Shown piece by piece: positions 11,849-64,000 of a stretch of 64,000 nucleotides of DNA. The notes under the pieces were generated by a model that saw nothing but the letters and a program-made list of their open reading frames with translations, did no database searches and was not told where the DNA came from. A program made the translations under genes and the position numbers. The DNA comes from Porpolomopsis calyptriformis. Its lineage: Eukaryota; Basidiomycota; Agaricomycetes; Agaricales; Hygrophoraceae. Within the stretch, counting starts at the first letter, position 1. Every line of letters begins with the position of its first letter. The stretch is from positions 434,001 through 498,000 of the forward strand of contig OX621174.1 of the NCBI GenBank assembly GCA_951640195.1, read 5' to 3'.

Positions 11849-12260
11849 TGTTATAAACTGGTTGTCGATGAGATGGTTTTACTTCGGAGAGCTCTGTCCC
11901 AAGACGATGATAATGTCTCAAGTCCTAGTTATTGGGTGGCTAACGAGGAATCAGACTTAAGGTCTGAGTACGACTAACTAGGAGTTTATATACTAACTAC
12001 GCTACTGCGGATGAGTCAGTATAAACACGAGGAATACATGAGGAGTACATGCGGAGTACATGCGACGAGTAAAGATAAGCATGATAGGGGACTCGGAGCA
12101 TGTGAAGAGATGAAACATAATGGTCGGAAATGAAGTGTGTCCTATCTCGGATAAATGAAAAGATACGGAATCGTGGGGAATCCCAAGTAGAGATAAGACC
12201 TGTCCGACTAAGCAGTAATGACTAACATAGAGAGGAAGTGAAAAATTTACGTCCGTGACA
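11849..12260 (-). repeat. 3' LTR of element B
   Basis: It runs TGTTATAAAC to GTCCGTGACA on the plus strand (TG...CA in either reading). It contains a TATATAAACTCC core promoter on the minus strand followed about 25-35 nt later by TCAGACCTTAAGTCTGATTC. The purine-rich sequence GAAAAACGAGGTGTA abuts it on the element side. Confidence 0.95.
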
Positions 12261-12294
12261 TACACCTCGTTTTTCGGGAAATTCGACCCGAATT

Positions 12295-13032
12295 TCAAAC
12301 CTGGGCGATGTCGGTCGTTTCGTTCTCCGGGGCCTGAGTCTGGATTTCCTCATCAGTGGTGGCCTCGATGACCACTGAGAGGGAAGCGATGGGGATGGCT
12401 TCCGGAGCCGCTTCGATGGGGGAAGGGGCTCGGACTGTCTTGACGTCGTCGTCGTCCGGGTATTCTAAGTCGAGGTTGATCGGGTACTCGACTGACGCAC
12501 CGTATTCGATTATTGTTTCCGTTGTCGCAAGGTCCTGTTGAGCTCGGAGGAAGTCTTCTCGAGAGAGTCGTTCAGCTCGACAACTCTCCTCTACGAGCTT
12601 GACGATGATGGCGCGGGTGGTGACGTCGTAACAATCGACCCATGTACGCTTCTTCTGTCATTGGAGCTCCCAAACTTTGAGCTCACTTTCATCCCAGCGG
12701 TTCTTCCAATACAGGGCGCTCCTCTCCGACGCTTTGAGCTCGGCTTTCAAGACGTCGCGCTCTTGTCGAAGTTCTCGGTTCCAGTTGCTAACACTATTGC
12801 TGTGGACCGTGAGACGTGAAATGGTGATGGCGGGGTCTTCAGGAGGAGGAGTCTCTGTGGGGTATTCTTTGAAGAAATCTTCTGCTCGTGCGCAACCTTG
12901 TCGGCGCAATTGACGAGTGGAAGAAGAAGAGGTGGAGGGACCGGGGGTAGGGGAACAGATGGCGGCGGATGAGGGGATTCGTCCGGCGCGTCTGATGGCG
13001 ACTTGAGGAGAGGGAGATCGAGTGGCAGGCAT
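12295..13032 (-). CDS. ORF3 of element B, extra coiled-coil protein (one internal stop)
   Basis: The start is the ATG at 13032 (MPATRSPSP), chosen because the equivalent ORF of element D also begins MPA-x-RS. An N-terminal Ser/Pro-rich segment is followed by a predicted coiled coil (NRELRQERDVLKAELKASER, then YWKNRWDESELKVWELQ). A TGA at 12658-12660 follows; reading on in the same frame gives another 120 residues ending at TGA 12295-12297, including an acidic stretch (LEYPDDDDVK). The stop could be a CGA to TGA mutation. It sits where env genes lie in other LTR elements, but I see no signal peptide or membrane segment. No function can be assigned. Confidence 0.7.
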
Positions 13033-13133
13033 TGTGAATAATGGTTTAGCGAAGTTGACGTTGGGGACAACAGTATTGGGTAGGTTCGTCAAAGTGGGGA
13101 AAGACTGGATGGAATCGTATCGACGATTCTGAG

Positions 13134-13141
13134 TTTATAAA
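13134..13141 (-). promoter_or_regulatory. TATA-like box between pol and ORF3 of element B
   Basis: TTTATAAA lies in the 168-nt gap between the pol stop and the ORF3 start, about 100 nt upstream of the ORF3 ATG. A TATA-like word, CATTTATATTTT, occupies the same place in element D. A separate ORF3 transcript is an inference. Confidence 0.35.
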
Positions 13142-13200: not shown

Positions 13201-16200
13201 TCAAGTCGCCGTTTGAATTGAGTCTTCGTAAGTCTTCACAATTTCTTTAGCGTGTCGTAAGACGTTCGATCGTTCTTCCCAAGTAGCTTCTTCGATCGGA
13301 TAACCTTTCCATTTGACCAAATACTTTCGTCGGCGTTGAACTCCGGAATGTTGAAGAATAGATTCAACTTCGTATTCTTCTTCGTTCTCGATCAGATCTG
13401 GTAGAGGTCGAGATGTATTAGTAATATCAGGGTGGAGCAACTTATCTTCGACATTCGGTCTCAGGAGTGATACGTGAAAAACTGGGTGGAGCTTCCAAGT
13501 TCCGGGGATATCGATAAGATACGCAAGATCCGATATCTGTTTCAAGATTTTGAATGGCCCAATTCTTCAGTTATCTAGTTTCTTGGCAGGTCGAGTCGTC
13601 TTGATGTTCTTGGTATCTAACCAAACCAAGTCTCCGACTTTGAAGGAGGGAGAGAGTTTCCGTTTTCGATCAGCGTATTTCTTCATTGATTCTGCGGCGT
13701 GTAAAAGTGATTCGCCAGCACTCTTCTGAGCACGCGTGAGACGTTCGTGAAAGGTGTTTGCTGCGGGGACATTACTCGGGGATTCGATTGTGATCGGTAA
13801 ATGAGGGTGACGGCCATATTCTAAATAGAAGGGTGATTGTGATGTGGAGGAGTGTTGTCGATTATTGTAAGCGAATTCGGCAGAAGCCAGCCATTCGGAC
13901 CAGTCGTCTTGCATGAAATTGGTATAGAACCGTAGGTAGACTTCAAGTTCTTGATTCGTTCGTTCAGTCTGACCATCGGTCTCGGGATGATAAGCAGTAG
14001 ACAGTCCAGAAATGGTTCCTAGGAGTTTGTTGAGGGCTTCAGTGAATTTTGATGCGAACTGAACTCCACGATCAGAAATAATCTTCTTCGGCCATCCATG
14101 ATGTTTCCAGACGTGATCACGGAAAAGTCGGGCAGCGCCTTCTGATGAGAGATTGGAAGTCGTCGGAATAAAGTGAGCTCGTTTTGTGAAACGATCGACG
14201 ACTACCATTACGGCGTCGTATCCAAGCGAGTCAGGTAGTTGAACAATGAGATCGACGGTTATCTCGGTCCATGGTTCGGTAGCGGGGGGTATAGGTTGTA
14301 GGAGTCCTGTCGGCTTCGAAGGGTAATTCTTGTTCTGTTGACAAGCAGGACAGGATCGTACGTAGTTGATAATGTCTTGAGAGACGCCATCCCAAACAAA
14401 GTTTCGGAGCACTAGCTCCTTCGTCTTCTCAATGCCAGGGTGTCCAGCATGGGGGTAGGCGTGGGACAGTCGTATTATGTTTGTGCGCAAAGATACTTCC
14501 TCTGGCACCACAATTCGACCTTCAACATCGCGAACCAACCCATCGACTTGGTCCCAAAACAGTGAGGCATCCTCGATTTTCTGTGAGATCTTGTTCGGTA
14601 TTGGCAGCTTGAAGCGTAATTCCGCGAAAAAGTCCGGTTCTGAAAGTTTGACGATCGAATTGATCCAATGTTCATCTGCGATTAAAGCCTCATCTTCCAC
14701 CTCGCCTTTACCCTCGTCGAAATAATCCGGGTGCCTGGATAACCCATCGGCCTTGTTCTTTCTCCCTGGGACATACTCGATTTTATACTCGTATCTTGAT
14801 AAGATTTCTGACCAACGAGCACGTCGTCCAGACAATACGCGAGCGGTACTGAAATACTTGAGGGCGAGGCTATCGGTACGAATCAGAAGGTCATGTCGTG
14901 AACCTTCTAGAAGATGTCGCCATGCTTTAAGACAGTCTATTATCGCCAGAAGCTCAGCGTCGTGAGTCGGATATTTCTTTTCAGCAGGGGTTAAAGACCT
15001 TGAGTGAAAGCCTACGGGTTTCCATTCGTTTTCATGTAGCTGAGACAGTATACCTCCTAAAGCAAAACCAGAGGCGTCAGTCTCCAAGCAGTACGGCAGG
15101 TCTTGGTCCGGCACTTCGAGGACAGGGGCATTCGTAAGGGAGTGTTTCAATTGATTGAAGGCGTGTTGTCATTTGGGGGTCTATTCCCATATGGTATCTT
15201 TGCGGAGTAACTGGTTGAGTGGTTGGGCGATCTTTGAGAAGTCCTTGATATATTTTCTCTAGAAATTTGCGCTCCCGAGAAAGGATTGGAGTTGTTTAAC
15301 GGTTCGAGGTTTGGGCCATTCGGCAATGGCTTTGACCTTCTTGGGATTGGTTCCGATATGACCTTTCGTTAAGGTCATCCCTAGATAGATCACCTCTTCT
15401 TTCTCGAATTGGCACTTGACAGGTTTGCAGGAGAGCTTGTTCTTCTTCATGATATCAAGAGTCTTGAACGTCCAGTAACGCAATTCTTCTAGATCATCTC
15501 CGCAGATGAGAACGTCATCGATATAGATAAAAACACAACCTGATTTCAGCACTTCAGCAAATCGCGTGTCGATCATCCATTGAAACGTAGCTGGAGAATT
15601 TCGTAGACCAAAGAACATCACTCTTGGAACGTAGAGTCCCTTGACCGTGTTGAAGGCAGCTTTCCATTCGTCGCCTTCTTTGATCCTAATGTTGTTAAAT
15701 CCCCATCGGATATCCACGACTGTGAATAGCGCAGCAGATCGTAACTTGGGCTGCTGAACGATTTGATGGAGAAGAGGTAGAGGATATCGGTCAGGAACGG
15801 TGAAGTGGTTCAGATAACGGTAGTCTTCGATTGGTCTGTATCCAGCGCTTTGTCCTTTCGCGTTGATTTCTTCAGCTTTCTTGCTTAGGAAGAAGGGAGT
15901 GGCTTGAGGTGAGGTTCCTTTGAATATTCGTCCAGTGGCCACGTTTTCTTCCAAAAACTTCTCTAGGAAGTCCATCTCTCGAGGGGACATCAGGTAAGTC
16001 TTGTCATTCTGTGGCAAGAAATCATCTTGGAGATCAATGACGTGATCAAATTCAGAATGAGGTGGAAGGCAATCGAAGGACTCCTTGGCAAAGACGCTAG
16101 CATAGTCTTTCCAATAGACCTCCGGTACAAACTTTCGCATATCTTCCTCCACCGTGCTGGCTCTAGACTCGTCCGATTTTGAAATACTTGTTATCGCCAG

Positions 16201-18308: not shown

Positions 18309-18720
18309 TGTTATAAACTGGTTGTCGATGAGATGGTTTTACTTCGGAGAGCTCTGTCCCAAGACGATGATAATGTCTCAAGTCCTAGTTATTGGGTGGC
18401 TAACGAGGAATCAGACTTAAGGTCTGAGTACGACTAACTAGGAGTTTATATACTAACTACGCTACTGCGGATGAGTCAGTATAAACACGAGGAATACATG
18501 AGGAGTACATGCGGAGTACATGCGACGAGTAAAGATAAGCATGATAGGGGACTCGGAGCATGTGAAGAGATGAAACATAATGGTCGGAAATGAAGTGTGT
18601 CCTATCTCGGATAAATGAAAAGATACGGAATCGTGGGGAATCCCAAGTAGAGATAAGACCTGTCCGACTAAGCAGTAATGACTAACATAGAGAGGAAGTG
18701 AAAAATTTACGTCTGTGACA
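18309..18720 (-). repeat. 5' LTR of element B
   Basis: It is 412 bp and identical to 11849-12260 except for one base in the last ten (GTCTGTGACA versus GTCCGTGACA). TSD ATATG follows at 18721. Confidence 0.95.
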
Positions 18721-62256: not shown

Positions 62257-62567
62257 AATGGAATTCGACTAAAGAGTGGGGAGCTAACTAGGAATCGAAC
62301 TTAACCTACTGACTAAAGGTCAGGCTTTATATACTAACTACCTGAGTCGCCATGAGTCAGTCGTATGTACGATTACAAAGCGGAATCCGGAATGTGACTA
62401 GTAAAGAGTCACAAAGAAAATAACGGAAATGGAATGTGACTCGTGAAAGAGTCGGAAGGAAGGTACATGTGATCAGTCTCTATATATAAAACGGCAAAGC
62501 GGAAGGATAAACGGAATGGAGACTAATCAAGTATGACTAAAAGAAAAAGAAAAAAGTGTCCGTGACA
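62250..62567 (-). repeat. 3' LTR of element D
   Basis: It ends TGTCCGTGACA at 62567 and carries, on the minus strand, TATATAAAGCCTGACC followed by AAGTTCGATTCC, the same layout as the LTR of B. The left border is within a few bases of 62250, inside the protease code of element E. A purine-type tract adjoins at 62568 onward. Confidence 0.75.
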
Positions 62568-62647
62568 TACACCCACACTAAAAGGAATTTCGTCCCGAAA
62601 TTCGAGGTGGCTTTGAGAGTGTTGATGGGTGCGGAGGAGGCGAAGGA

Positions 62648-63226
62648 CTAGATTAAGTCCTTGTCGGAGACGGCGGTCGACAGGGAAATAATGTTGGCCA
62701 GGGAAGTATCGTCGTCGTCGGGGATGGCAATGGGGTTCAACGACGAACCGAGGGGAACGATGAGCGGACCTGGGAAAACAGGAGGAGCTGGGGAATCAAG
62801 ATGGGGAAGTACCTTTACGGCTTCCTCATATTTCGCCTCCCAGTGTTTGGCCTGTTCTCGCCAATATTCACTCGCTCTTCTCTTTCCATCTAAACTCATT
62901 CCTTGATTGTACAGTTCTTCATTCAACCTCGCGATTTCGTCTTTATAGTATTTGACGTCCTTCTGCAGTGACTCGATGATTTGCTCGGGTGGGATGGGTG
63001 GCGCGATGATTTCTTCTGGCCATATGGGAAGGTCCCGATTGCGTGCGCGTCGGTTGTGCTGCCAGAGTTGTCCAGCGAGCTCAGCTTCACCGTAGGCGGA
63101 GGAGGTGGAAGCAAGCGGAGGGGGAGCGCGGCAAGGGGGTTGTCCTCCAGTGGACATATGAGGAGCGCAGGGTGGACGACCACCGGTTGACTTGCGAGCG
63201 GTTTGGTGTGAGCGTTCTGCGGGCAT
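62648..63226 (-). CDS. ORF3 of element D, extra coiled-coil protein (intact)
   Basis: The start is the ATG at 63226 (MPAERSHQTARKSTGGRPP). A Pro-rich segment is followed by a coiled coil (EQIIESLQKDVKYYKDEIAR, LNEELYNQGMSLDGKRRASE, YWREQAKHWEAKYEEAV) and an acidic C-terminus (PIAIPDDDDTSLANI), stop at 62648, 192 residues. It is related in position, start and coiled-coil layout (YW-x4 pattern, acidic end) to ORF3 of element B, but diverged in sequence. No signal peptide or membrane segment, so it is not an obvious env. Role unknown. Confidence 0.75.
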   Translation of the reverse strand: MPAERSHQTARKSTGGRPPCAPHMSTGGQPPCRAPPPLASTSSAYGEAELAGQLWQHNRRARNRDLPIWPEEIIAPPIPPEQIIESLQKDVKYYKDEIARLNEELYNQGMSLDGKRRASEYWREQAKHWEAKYEEAVKVLPHLDSPAPPVFPGPLIVPLGSSLNPIAIPDDDDTSLANIISLSTAVSDKDLI

Positions 63227-63345
63227 AGTGATGTCGACTTCTAGTGAAAGACGGAGATGAAAGAGATTATAAGGACAAGTCGGAGTTTGGAAAGGTGACA
63301 AAAGTGAAAATATAAATGAGGGGAGTTGATACCGTGAAAGAATGA

Positions 63346-64000
63346 TTAGGTCGCCGTTTGAATTGAGTGTTCGTATTCTAGAATTCGTTCTTTCGCATGG
63401 AGGAGATTCTTCTTCGGCTCCCAGGTTGCTTCTTCAATGGGATAGCCGACCCATTTAACCAAATACGTACGACATCGGGTAGACCCGTGATGTTGGAGAA
63501 TTCGTTCAACCTCGTATTCTTCTTTCTCTTGAATGACATCTGGAGGTGGTCGGAGATTATCATCTACTTCCTCTGGATGGAGATCGGAGTTAATGTTAGC
63601 GGGTCTCAGGAGTAAAACGTGGAAGACGTCATGTATTTTCCATGATAAGGGAAGGGCCAGGCGATAAGAGACTTTTCCGATTCTTTCTAGAACTTTGAAT
63701 GGTCCAGTGCGTCGGACATCAAGCTTGAGGGTTGGACGACCTGTTTTTAAGTTACGGGTATCAAGATAAACAAATTGACCTATTTGGAGTTGGGTATCTT
63801 TCCGTTTACAATCTGCGAAGTGTTTCATGGTTTCGGCCGTTGTTTCTAGAGCTTTTGTGGCTTCTTCGCGGGCTTCTGTGAGATGATCGTGAAAGGCATC
63901 TGCTGCGGGATTGGAAGTAGGGATCGCAGGGATAGATGGGACGAAGGGATGTTGGCCAGTATCAAGGTAAAAGGGAGTGTGTTTCGTCGAGGAGTGTTGA
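63346..64000 (-). CDS. C-terminal pol of chromovirus D (integrase end and chromodomain; partial)
   Basis: Open without a stop from the right edge to 63346. The end of the integrase (HSSTKHTPFYLDTGQHP, FVYLDTRNLKTGRPTLKLDV, GPFKVLERIGKVSYRLALPL) precedes a chromodomain (YEVERILQHHGSTRCRTYLV, KWVGYPIEEATWEPKKN) and the ending SIQTAT, the same final residues as in element B. The element continues past the window and shows no damage here. Confidence 0.9.
   Translation of the reverse strand, partial: QHSSTKHTPFYLDTGQHPFVPSIPAIPTSNPAADAFHDHLTEAREEATKALETTAETMKHFADCKRKDTQLQIGQFVYLDTRNLKTGRPTLKLDVRRTGPFKVLERIGKVSYRLALPLSWKIHDVFHVLLLRPANINSDLHPEEVDDNLRPPPDVIQEKEEYEVERILQHHGSTRCRTYLVKWVGYPIEEATWEPKKNLLHAKERILEYEHSIQTAT

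Follow-up and report, generated by a model that had tools for sequence, protein, structure and literature searches.

Ty3-type elements of a single genome carry a genuine, selectively maintained third gene, ORF3, between pol and the 3′ LTR, and in two of the element families, D and F, the N-terminus of its product copies the tail of histone H3 around lysine 9. We put the chances as even that this tail serves as an H3K9 mimic, with ORF3, probably transcribed from a TATA box of its own, acting as an anti-silencing decoy. The window, by which we mean the whole stretch of DNA analysed, comprises 64 kb (C12:434001-498000) within a 33.5-Mb assembly of 17 contigs, and all counts and comparisons given here refer to that one genome.

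A third gene between pol and the 3′ LTR

Two elements of the window, B and D, are classed as chromoviruses from their sequence, having a Ty3-type pol with a chromodomain after the integrase. Both run on the minus strand, with the following parts:

18309..18720, minus strand, 5′ LTR of element B, 412 nt
13201..13545, minus strand, C-terminal frame of B pol with a chromodomain-type end (by inspection)
12658..13032, minus strand, first part of B ORF3, 124 aa, from the ATG at 13032 to an in-frame TGA at 12658
12295..12657, minus strand, frame of B ORF3 past the TGA, with the acidic end; stop at 12295
11849..12260, minus strand, 3′ LTR of element B, 412 nt, one mismatch against the 5′ LTR
63370..63516, minus strand, chromodomain at the end of D pol (Pfam PF00385, E 3.9e-13)
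62648..63226, minus strand, D ORF3, 192 aa, intact by translation
62560..62567, minus strand, start of the D 3′ LTR (TGTCACGG), 80 nt past the ORF3 stop
12268-12300 and 62570-62605 in the window, and L087:1319-1362, inverted repeat AATTTCG...CGAAATT (by eye)

Element B is bounded by flanking LTRs and a target duplication, with CATAT at both outer ends (flanks by inspection); together with a single LTR mismatch in 412 nt, this marks B as a young, complete insertion. Two near-identical B loci, L097 and L098, are found by PF00385. Element D leaves the window at position 64000, with the end of pol, ORF3 and the start of the 3′ LTR inside and its 5′ LTR outside, and LTRs and target duplication were checked for B only. 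The distance from the ORF3 stop to the LTR is constant across most copies: 80 nt in 25 of 30 D loci, the LTR start being unmatched in the other five, and 34 nt in 27 of 30 B loci. In B, D and F alike, an inverted repeat of the type listed was seen by eye directly ahead of the polypurine-like end. Element copies decay largely through C-to-T and G-to-A changes, often creating TGA (seen in L011, L031, L102, L104 and L107-L112), as expected from methylation-linked or RIP-like mutation.

As the preliminary description had it, ORF3 lies between a pol ending in SIQTAT and the 3′ LTR in both elements, the gap that separates the pol stop from its ATG measuring 168 nt in B and 119 nt in D, and in both its product starts with MPAxRS, is Pro/Ser-rich and then has a charged stretch with YW and an acidic end. 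The frame, taken there to be open in both elements, is so in D, where it is intact in 29 of the 30 loci fetched; the B copy of the window is interrupted by a TGA after 124 aa. Most B copies are longer, reading 245 or 247 aa in 20 of the 30 loci fetched, while three (the window copy, L050 and L053) stop after 124 aa and seven stop elsewhere. Because the window copy is young and yet stops at 124 aa, transposition may be possible with a shortened B ORF3, at any rate where help is given in trans. The idea of an ORF3 common to B and D stands for position, start motif and coil; sequence likeness is only faint (BLASTP E 0.044 between relatives; hhalign probability 5%), which leaves the two suggestively alike.

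Genome searches returned 126 matches to D-ORF3, fragments and distant T-type sequences included, and 150 scored matches among 268 candidates for B-ORF3; the 60 loci fetched (30 D and 30 B) were the best-scoring matches, so the sample leans towards young copies. Comparison of intact copies bears out selection on the protein, with pairwise dN/dS well below 1: 0.16 for D ORF3 (29 of 30 loci) and 0.14 for B ORF3 (20 of 30 loci; 0.07 in an ungapped block), beside 0.17 (D, n = 28) and 0.09 (B, n = 18) for the final 120 codons of pol in these copies, all of these being averages over related copies in which the evolution of active elements is mixed with decay after insertion. Comparison of D copies with the distant copy L069 gives dN/dS 0.12-0.25 in 32 comparisons, at dS 0.77-1.20 with one exception at 0.37. 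Read in other frames, eight of ten tests give dN/dS 0.93-3.52; the two remaining values, 0.21 and 0.09, come from the antisense frame whose third codon positions coincide with those of ORF3, and this frame contains stops, as every other frame does, whereas the true ORF3 frame holds none. These other-frame controls rule out a chance open frame.

ORF3 is not confined to B and D. A third chromovirus family, F (L086 and L087), has a 230-aa ORF3 in the same place, with 136 matches in the genome (fragments included), and family T, possibly belonging to a Ylt1-like lineage, carries a 173-aa ORF related to D-ORF3 after a Ty3-like integrase (L069:2330-2851, L070:1103-1621). No Pfam chromodomain match was found in the T integrase, so that ORF3 appears to extend beyond elements with a chromodomain. 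D (L069) and T ORF3 align over the coil (E 2e-6), and B and F ORF3 show no likeness (E 1.4); by inspection, the families have in common where ORF3 lies, a beginning rich in Pro and Ser, and a charged stretch whose end is rich in W.

Among 150 scored chromodomain matches (718 candidates), from which D chromodomains are absent, 42 have a B-ORF3 match within 1500 nt and 108 have no B, D or T ORF3 match, a count that leaves out F and B-ORF3 copies beyond the scored 150. For 20 chromodomain matches with no ORF3 match nearby, the downstream region was fetched and inspected: 14 belong to family E (L079-L085, L088-L094), two to F, two to B, one to a CHD1-like host gene and one to element C. In family E, pol extends about 150 aa beyond the chromodomain, in a conserved stretch ending ...PRWLLRDCSRHLQRLR, and no ORF3 was seen after it at the 14 loci (the L088 region in part); nor was one seen in element C of the window.

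Known domains do not account for the protein: for D, F, B and T ORF3, no Pfam or NCBIfam family scored above cut-off, env domains included. Searched against a protein database, D-ORF3 gave 130 candidates, none at E 1e-3, and a nine-sequence ORF3 alignment gave 7,994 scored candidates and no relative, negatives that word-based candidate picking and missing small-ORF gene calls may also explain. A control query of the same database with B pol scored 7,996 candidates, of which 1,930 matched; the best match covers 98% of B pol at 51% identity, and the 120 matches listed include named basidiomycetes. Fungal Ty3 proteins are thus present there, yet ORF3 is not recognised. A viral contig database likewise yielded no relative.

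The product of ORF3 is predicted to be small and helical, of coiled-coil-like character, between a basic, disordered N-terminus and a C-terminus that is acidic; the central region in D is

62810..62989, minus strand, helical, coiled-coil-like region of D ORF3, residues 80-139 (AlphaFold2 helices 80-109 and 113-139)

The D model, which was built from six sequences and has a mean pLDDT of 57, places helices at residues 44-64, 80-109 and 113-139, with pLDDT 91-95 at residues 81-100. Residues 1-43 have no predicted structure, at low pLDDT, and the end of the protein is disordered, with a calculated pI of 4.1 for the last 40 residues. This arrangement suits a coil with tails, the predicted oligomer itself not being visible in the model; the F-ORF3 model (mean pLDDT 38.9) is unusable.

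Promoter-like sequences in the gap upstream of ORF3

The gap between pol and ORF3 contains candidate promoter sequences in both elements of the window:

13134-13141, minus strand, TATA-like box TTTATAAA before B ORF3
13112..13129, minus strand, inverted repeat GAATCGT-CGAT-ACGATTC, within the best conserved stretch of the B gap
63267..63285, minus strand, promoter-like block CTCCGAC-N6-TTATAA, about 45 nt before the D ORF3 ATG

Each ORF3 had earlier been credited with a TATA-like box. The one before B ORF3 is present and is followed, within the gap, by the inverted repeat. The one proposed for D, at 63308-63319, varies between copies and was rejected as a conserved TATA; the conserved box is TTATAA at 63267-63272, within the promoter-like block. 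That block has one match in the 64-kb window, where 0.01 would be expected, and occurs in 24 of 30 D loci as well as in L069. Both F loci with upstream sequence have CTCCGAC and TTATAA at a spacing of 2, and in D and F alike the block stands about 44-49 nt before the ORF3 ATG. More broadly, TATAA occurs in the gap of 30/30 D and 30/30 B loci, as against 0.16 (D) and 0.27 (B) for shuffled gaps, although the common descent of the copies means that 60 out of 60 amounts to few independent cases. Mismatch between copies is lower in the gap, at 0.071 (D) and 0.117 (B), than at synonymous sites of ORF3 (0.233 and 0.232). A promoter of its own is, on these sequence features, likely for the ORF3 of D and F and plausible for that of B.

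We think it unlikely that ORF3 is instead made from spliced or full-length RNA. In favour of such a route, 20 of the 30 D loci have a CAG or TAG in the last 40 nt ahead of the ATG, and inspection of L069 found no TATAA in the T gap. The same trinucleotides precede the ATG in just 7 of 30 B loci, however, and splicing as a common route to ORF3 was rejected because they are not common to the loci; the presence of TATAA in all 60 gaps, the shortage of gap mismatches relative to ORF3 synonymous sites and the CTCCGAC-N-TTATAA arrangement common to D and F also argue against it. Multiple copies, dN/dS well below 1, TATAA in all 60 gaps fetched and the D/F block bear out the earlier picture of an accessory protein that is conserved and has a promoter-like box to itself, the promoter being a prediction.

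The H3K9-like N-terminus and its possible function

63179..63205, minus strand, H3K9-like motif QTARKSTGG, D ORF3 residues 8-16, identical to host H3 residues 5-13

The N-terminus has the MPAxRS start and the Pro/Ser content previously described, an account that passed over D's near copy of the H3 tail; the likeness was noticed on reading the sequence, with no prior hypothesis. D-ORF3 begins MPAERSHQTARKSTGGRPP, and the host H3 genes, which have introns, read MARTKQTARKSTGG. In the D copy of L010, aligned without gaps from R5, 12 of 16 positions equal H3 residues 2-17 (inspection); H3 K4 and K14 are not kept in D ORF3. The longest stretch common to D-ORF3 and the H3 tail is nine residues, and none of 20,000 shuffles reaches seven. 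For F-ORF3, which begins MPREVRYARKSTGRRPPRG and contains ARKSTGRRPPR, the longest common stretch is six, reached by 5 of 20,000 shuffles, and for B-ORF3 it is just three, on which ground B ORF3 was rejected as an H3 mimic. The H3-like stretch is the sole clear likeness between the D and F proteins (16/28, E 1e-4). A PDB search with D-ORF3 gave six weak matches, four of them H3 tail peptides (E 0.83-0.95, alone not significant), and no ARKS-type start was found in the ORF of family T.

Across the genome, the QTARKSTGG pattern has 70 exact matches, 67 in D-ORF3s and three in host H3 genes, and none in a reversed control; the exact motif is present in 26 of the 30 D loci fetched. With up to two mismatches allowed there are 101 matches, against one in the reversed control. 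Of thirty imperfect matches listed, D-ORF3s account for 26, and one more is found some 550 nt away from a D match. The changes in imperfect D motifs are R8H, R8C, G12S, G13S and A7T, with none at Q5, T6, K9, S10 or T11; since lysine codons largely escape C-to-T and G-to-A decay, the unchanged K9 is weaker evidence than it looks. Outside the D-ORF3s, C3:1153079-1153104 codes for QTARRSTGG, which might, at a guess, belong to a centromeric H3 variant.

Within D ORF3 (33 copies; L022 omitted as broken, the stop of L104 read as X), the motif is the most constrained part, with dN/dS 0.04 (pS 0.32, pN 0.018). The coil follows at 0.08, the motif together with RPPR (13 residues) at 0.13, the Pro-rich part at 0.20, the residues preceding the motif at 0.23 and the C-terminus at 0.36, with 0.18 for the whole ORF. 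In F, ARKSTG is identical in three copies; six further copies, chosen for divergence, are decayed, and none of the six has the whole ARKSTG, all six having the lysine. Selection on the motif is thus evident for D and a possibility for F.

Lysine 9 of H3 is the site that cells mark to silence jumping genes. HP1-type chromodomains bind K9-methylated H3, as does the chromodomain of the retrotransposon MAGGY, which binds H3K9me2/3 through a pocket of Y24, W45 and Y48 (PMC3350952), and ARKS is the motif in which methylation by EHMT1/2 was first found (PMC10611923). The D chromodomain has PDB relatives that include Oxpecker, CDYL and HP1, and the Y, W and Y columns of the pocket are kept in two D chromodomain alignments printed. 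With both a chromodomain and an H3K9-like ORF3, element D carries a reader and a copy of what it reads.

The reading that we rank first is a decoy. ORF3 would be transcribed from its own TATA-type promoter in the gap; its tail would be taken for H3K9 and methylated by the host H3K9 methyltransferase; methyl-K9 readers, namely HP1-type proteins and the element's own integrase chromodomain, would bind the tail; and the coil, holding several tails, would draw writers and readers off the element's chromatin. For this we infer that ORF3 forms an oligomer, is located in the nucleus, is methylated and binds writers and readers. Assembly, nuclear entry and silencing evasion had been guessed at earlier as roles, and it is to the last of these that the H3K9-like N-terminus found in D and F lends substance. 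Set against an H3K9 mimic are the lack of the motif in B, the weaker constraint on RPPR and the divergent F copies without a whole ARKSTG; and as B combines a chromodomain-type pol end with a motif-less ORF3, the protein must have a core role that does not need the motif. We hold only tentatively a fuller version, in which the ORF3 made from an internal promoter presents several imitation H3K9 tails at once, is methylated by the host silencing enzyme and soaks up that enzyme, HP1 and the element's own chromodomain. Were that so, the parasite would carry both the reader and the free mark, controlling its own silencing and targeting.

Our second choice, itself rather unlikely, is that the tail is a ligand of the element's own integrase chromodomain and not a host decoy. 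Within the particle or the pre-integration complex, ORF3 coils would then collect or mask the chromodomains of integrase and thereby steer integration. This reading would accord with the presence of both motif and chromodomain in D and F, with the lack of both in T (no Pfam chromodomain match, no ARKS-type start) and with the binding of H3K9me2/3 by the MAGGY chromodomain (PMC3350952). It fits poorly with B, which has a chromodomain-type pol end and an ORF3 but no motif, and because a promoter of its own would produce ORF3 apart from the particle proteins, we place the decoy above it.

We consider it quite improbable that the motif remains from capture of a host H3 sequence or arose by chance, with function residing only in the coil and the acidic end. 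Over the motif, one D variant differs from a host H3 gene at a single nucleotide of 26 (inspection), and in the host H3 gene L101 (C2:3412830-3413250) QTARKSTGG seems to be a small exon by itself; exon capture from host H3 is possible, and B does without the motif altogether. An idle remnant, however, would not be expected where synonymous sites of the motif vary (pS 0.32) and its amino acids do not (pN 0.018), or where F keeps ARKSTG in a protein otherwise hardly alike. Very unlikely, finally, is a basic import or DNA/RNA-binding segment that imitates the H3 import signal and is unrelated to K9 methylation: the H3 tail is recognised by importins, AT-hooks contain GRP cores and a high calculated pI (10.1 for D, 11.3 for F) marks residues 1-45 as strongly basic, but basicity needs no nine identical residues in order, and dN/dS is 0.04 in the motif as against 0.23 before it and 0.13 with RPPR included.

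Comparison with known systems

If the tail is an H3K9 mimic, a retrotransposon protein imitates the element's own silencing mark and is paired with the element's own reader domain. Retrotransposons would then join the viruses proposed to use histone mimicry, and ORF3 would offer a natural probe of the H3K9 pathway and a means of testing how elements with a chromodomain attain their high copy numbers. Even without mimicry, there is a conserved third gene in three chromovirus families of one genome, and an ORF3 relative in a family whose integrase shows no chromodomain. No retrotransposon-encoded H3 mimic was found in the histone-mimicry and anti-silencing literature, as covered by titles and the openings of abstracts, with subscription journals mostly outside.

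A third ORF as such is not new. In the preliminary description, chromoviruses of the Tf1/sushi group had been put down to gag and pol only; the legend of Figure 3 in PMC2864245 marks an additional ORF of unknown function for fungal chromoviruses, which share with the elements described here a Ty3-type pol and a C-terminal chromodomain. That ORF may be ORF3; the section consulted gives neither a sequence nor a function for it and mentions no H3-like motif. The 5′aORF of the sunflower Tekay element is likewise a conserved, proline-rich and largely disordered extra protein of a chromovirus, suggested to modulate silencing; it differs in being located towards the 5′ end, where ORF3 stands after pol and before the 3′ LTR, and no H3 likeness is reported in the text available (PMC11728184).

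Among anti-silencing proteins, VANC of the Arabidopsis VANDAL elements is transposon-encoded and counteracts epigenetic silencing, as is proposed for ORF3; VANC proteins, by contrast, are sequence-specific DNA-binding proteins of DNA transposons, and the accessible part of the account mentions no histone mimicry (PMC10398659). The integrase of the fungal Ty3 element MAGGY bears a chromodomain of group I that recognises H3K9me2/3; this is a reader, and the available text describes no element-encoded H3-like ligand for it (PMC3350952). Closest in kind to the tail of ORF3 are influenza NS1 (ARSK) and SARS-CoV-2 ORF8 (ARKS), accessory proteins with a short H3-tail motif; such viral mimics are proposed to engage host chromatin factors (PMC10208167), and the claim of mimicry for ORF8 is disputed (PMC10833455). 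The motifs of NS1 and ORF8 span about four residues, whereas the match in D-ORF3 is nine in a row, and whereas those proteins belong to viruses, ORF3 belongs to an LTR retrotransposon with a chromodomain of its own.
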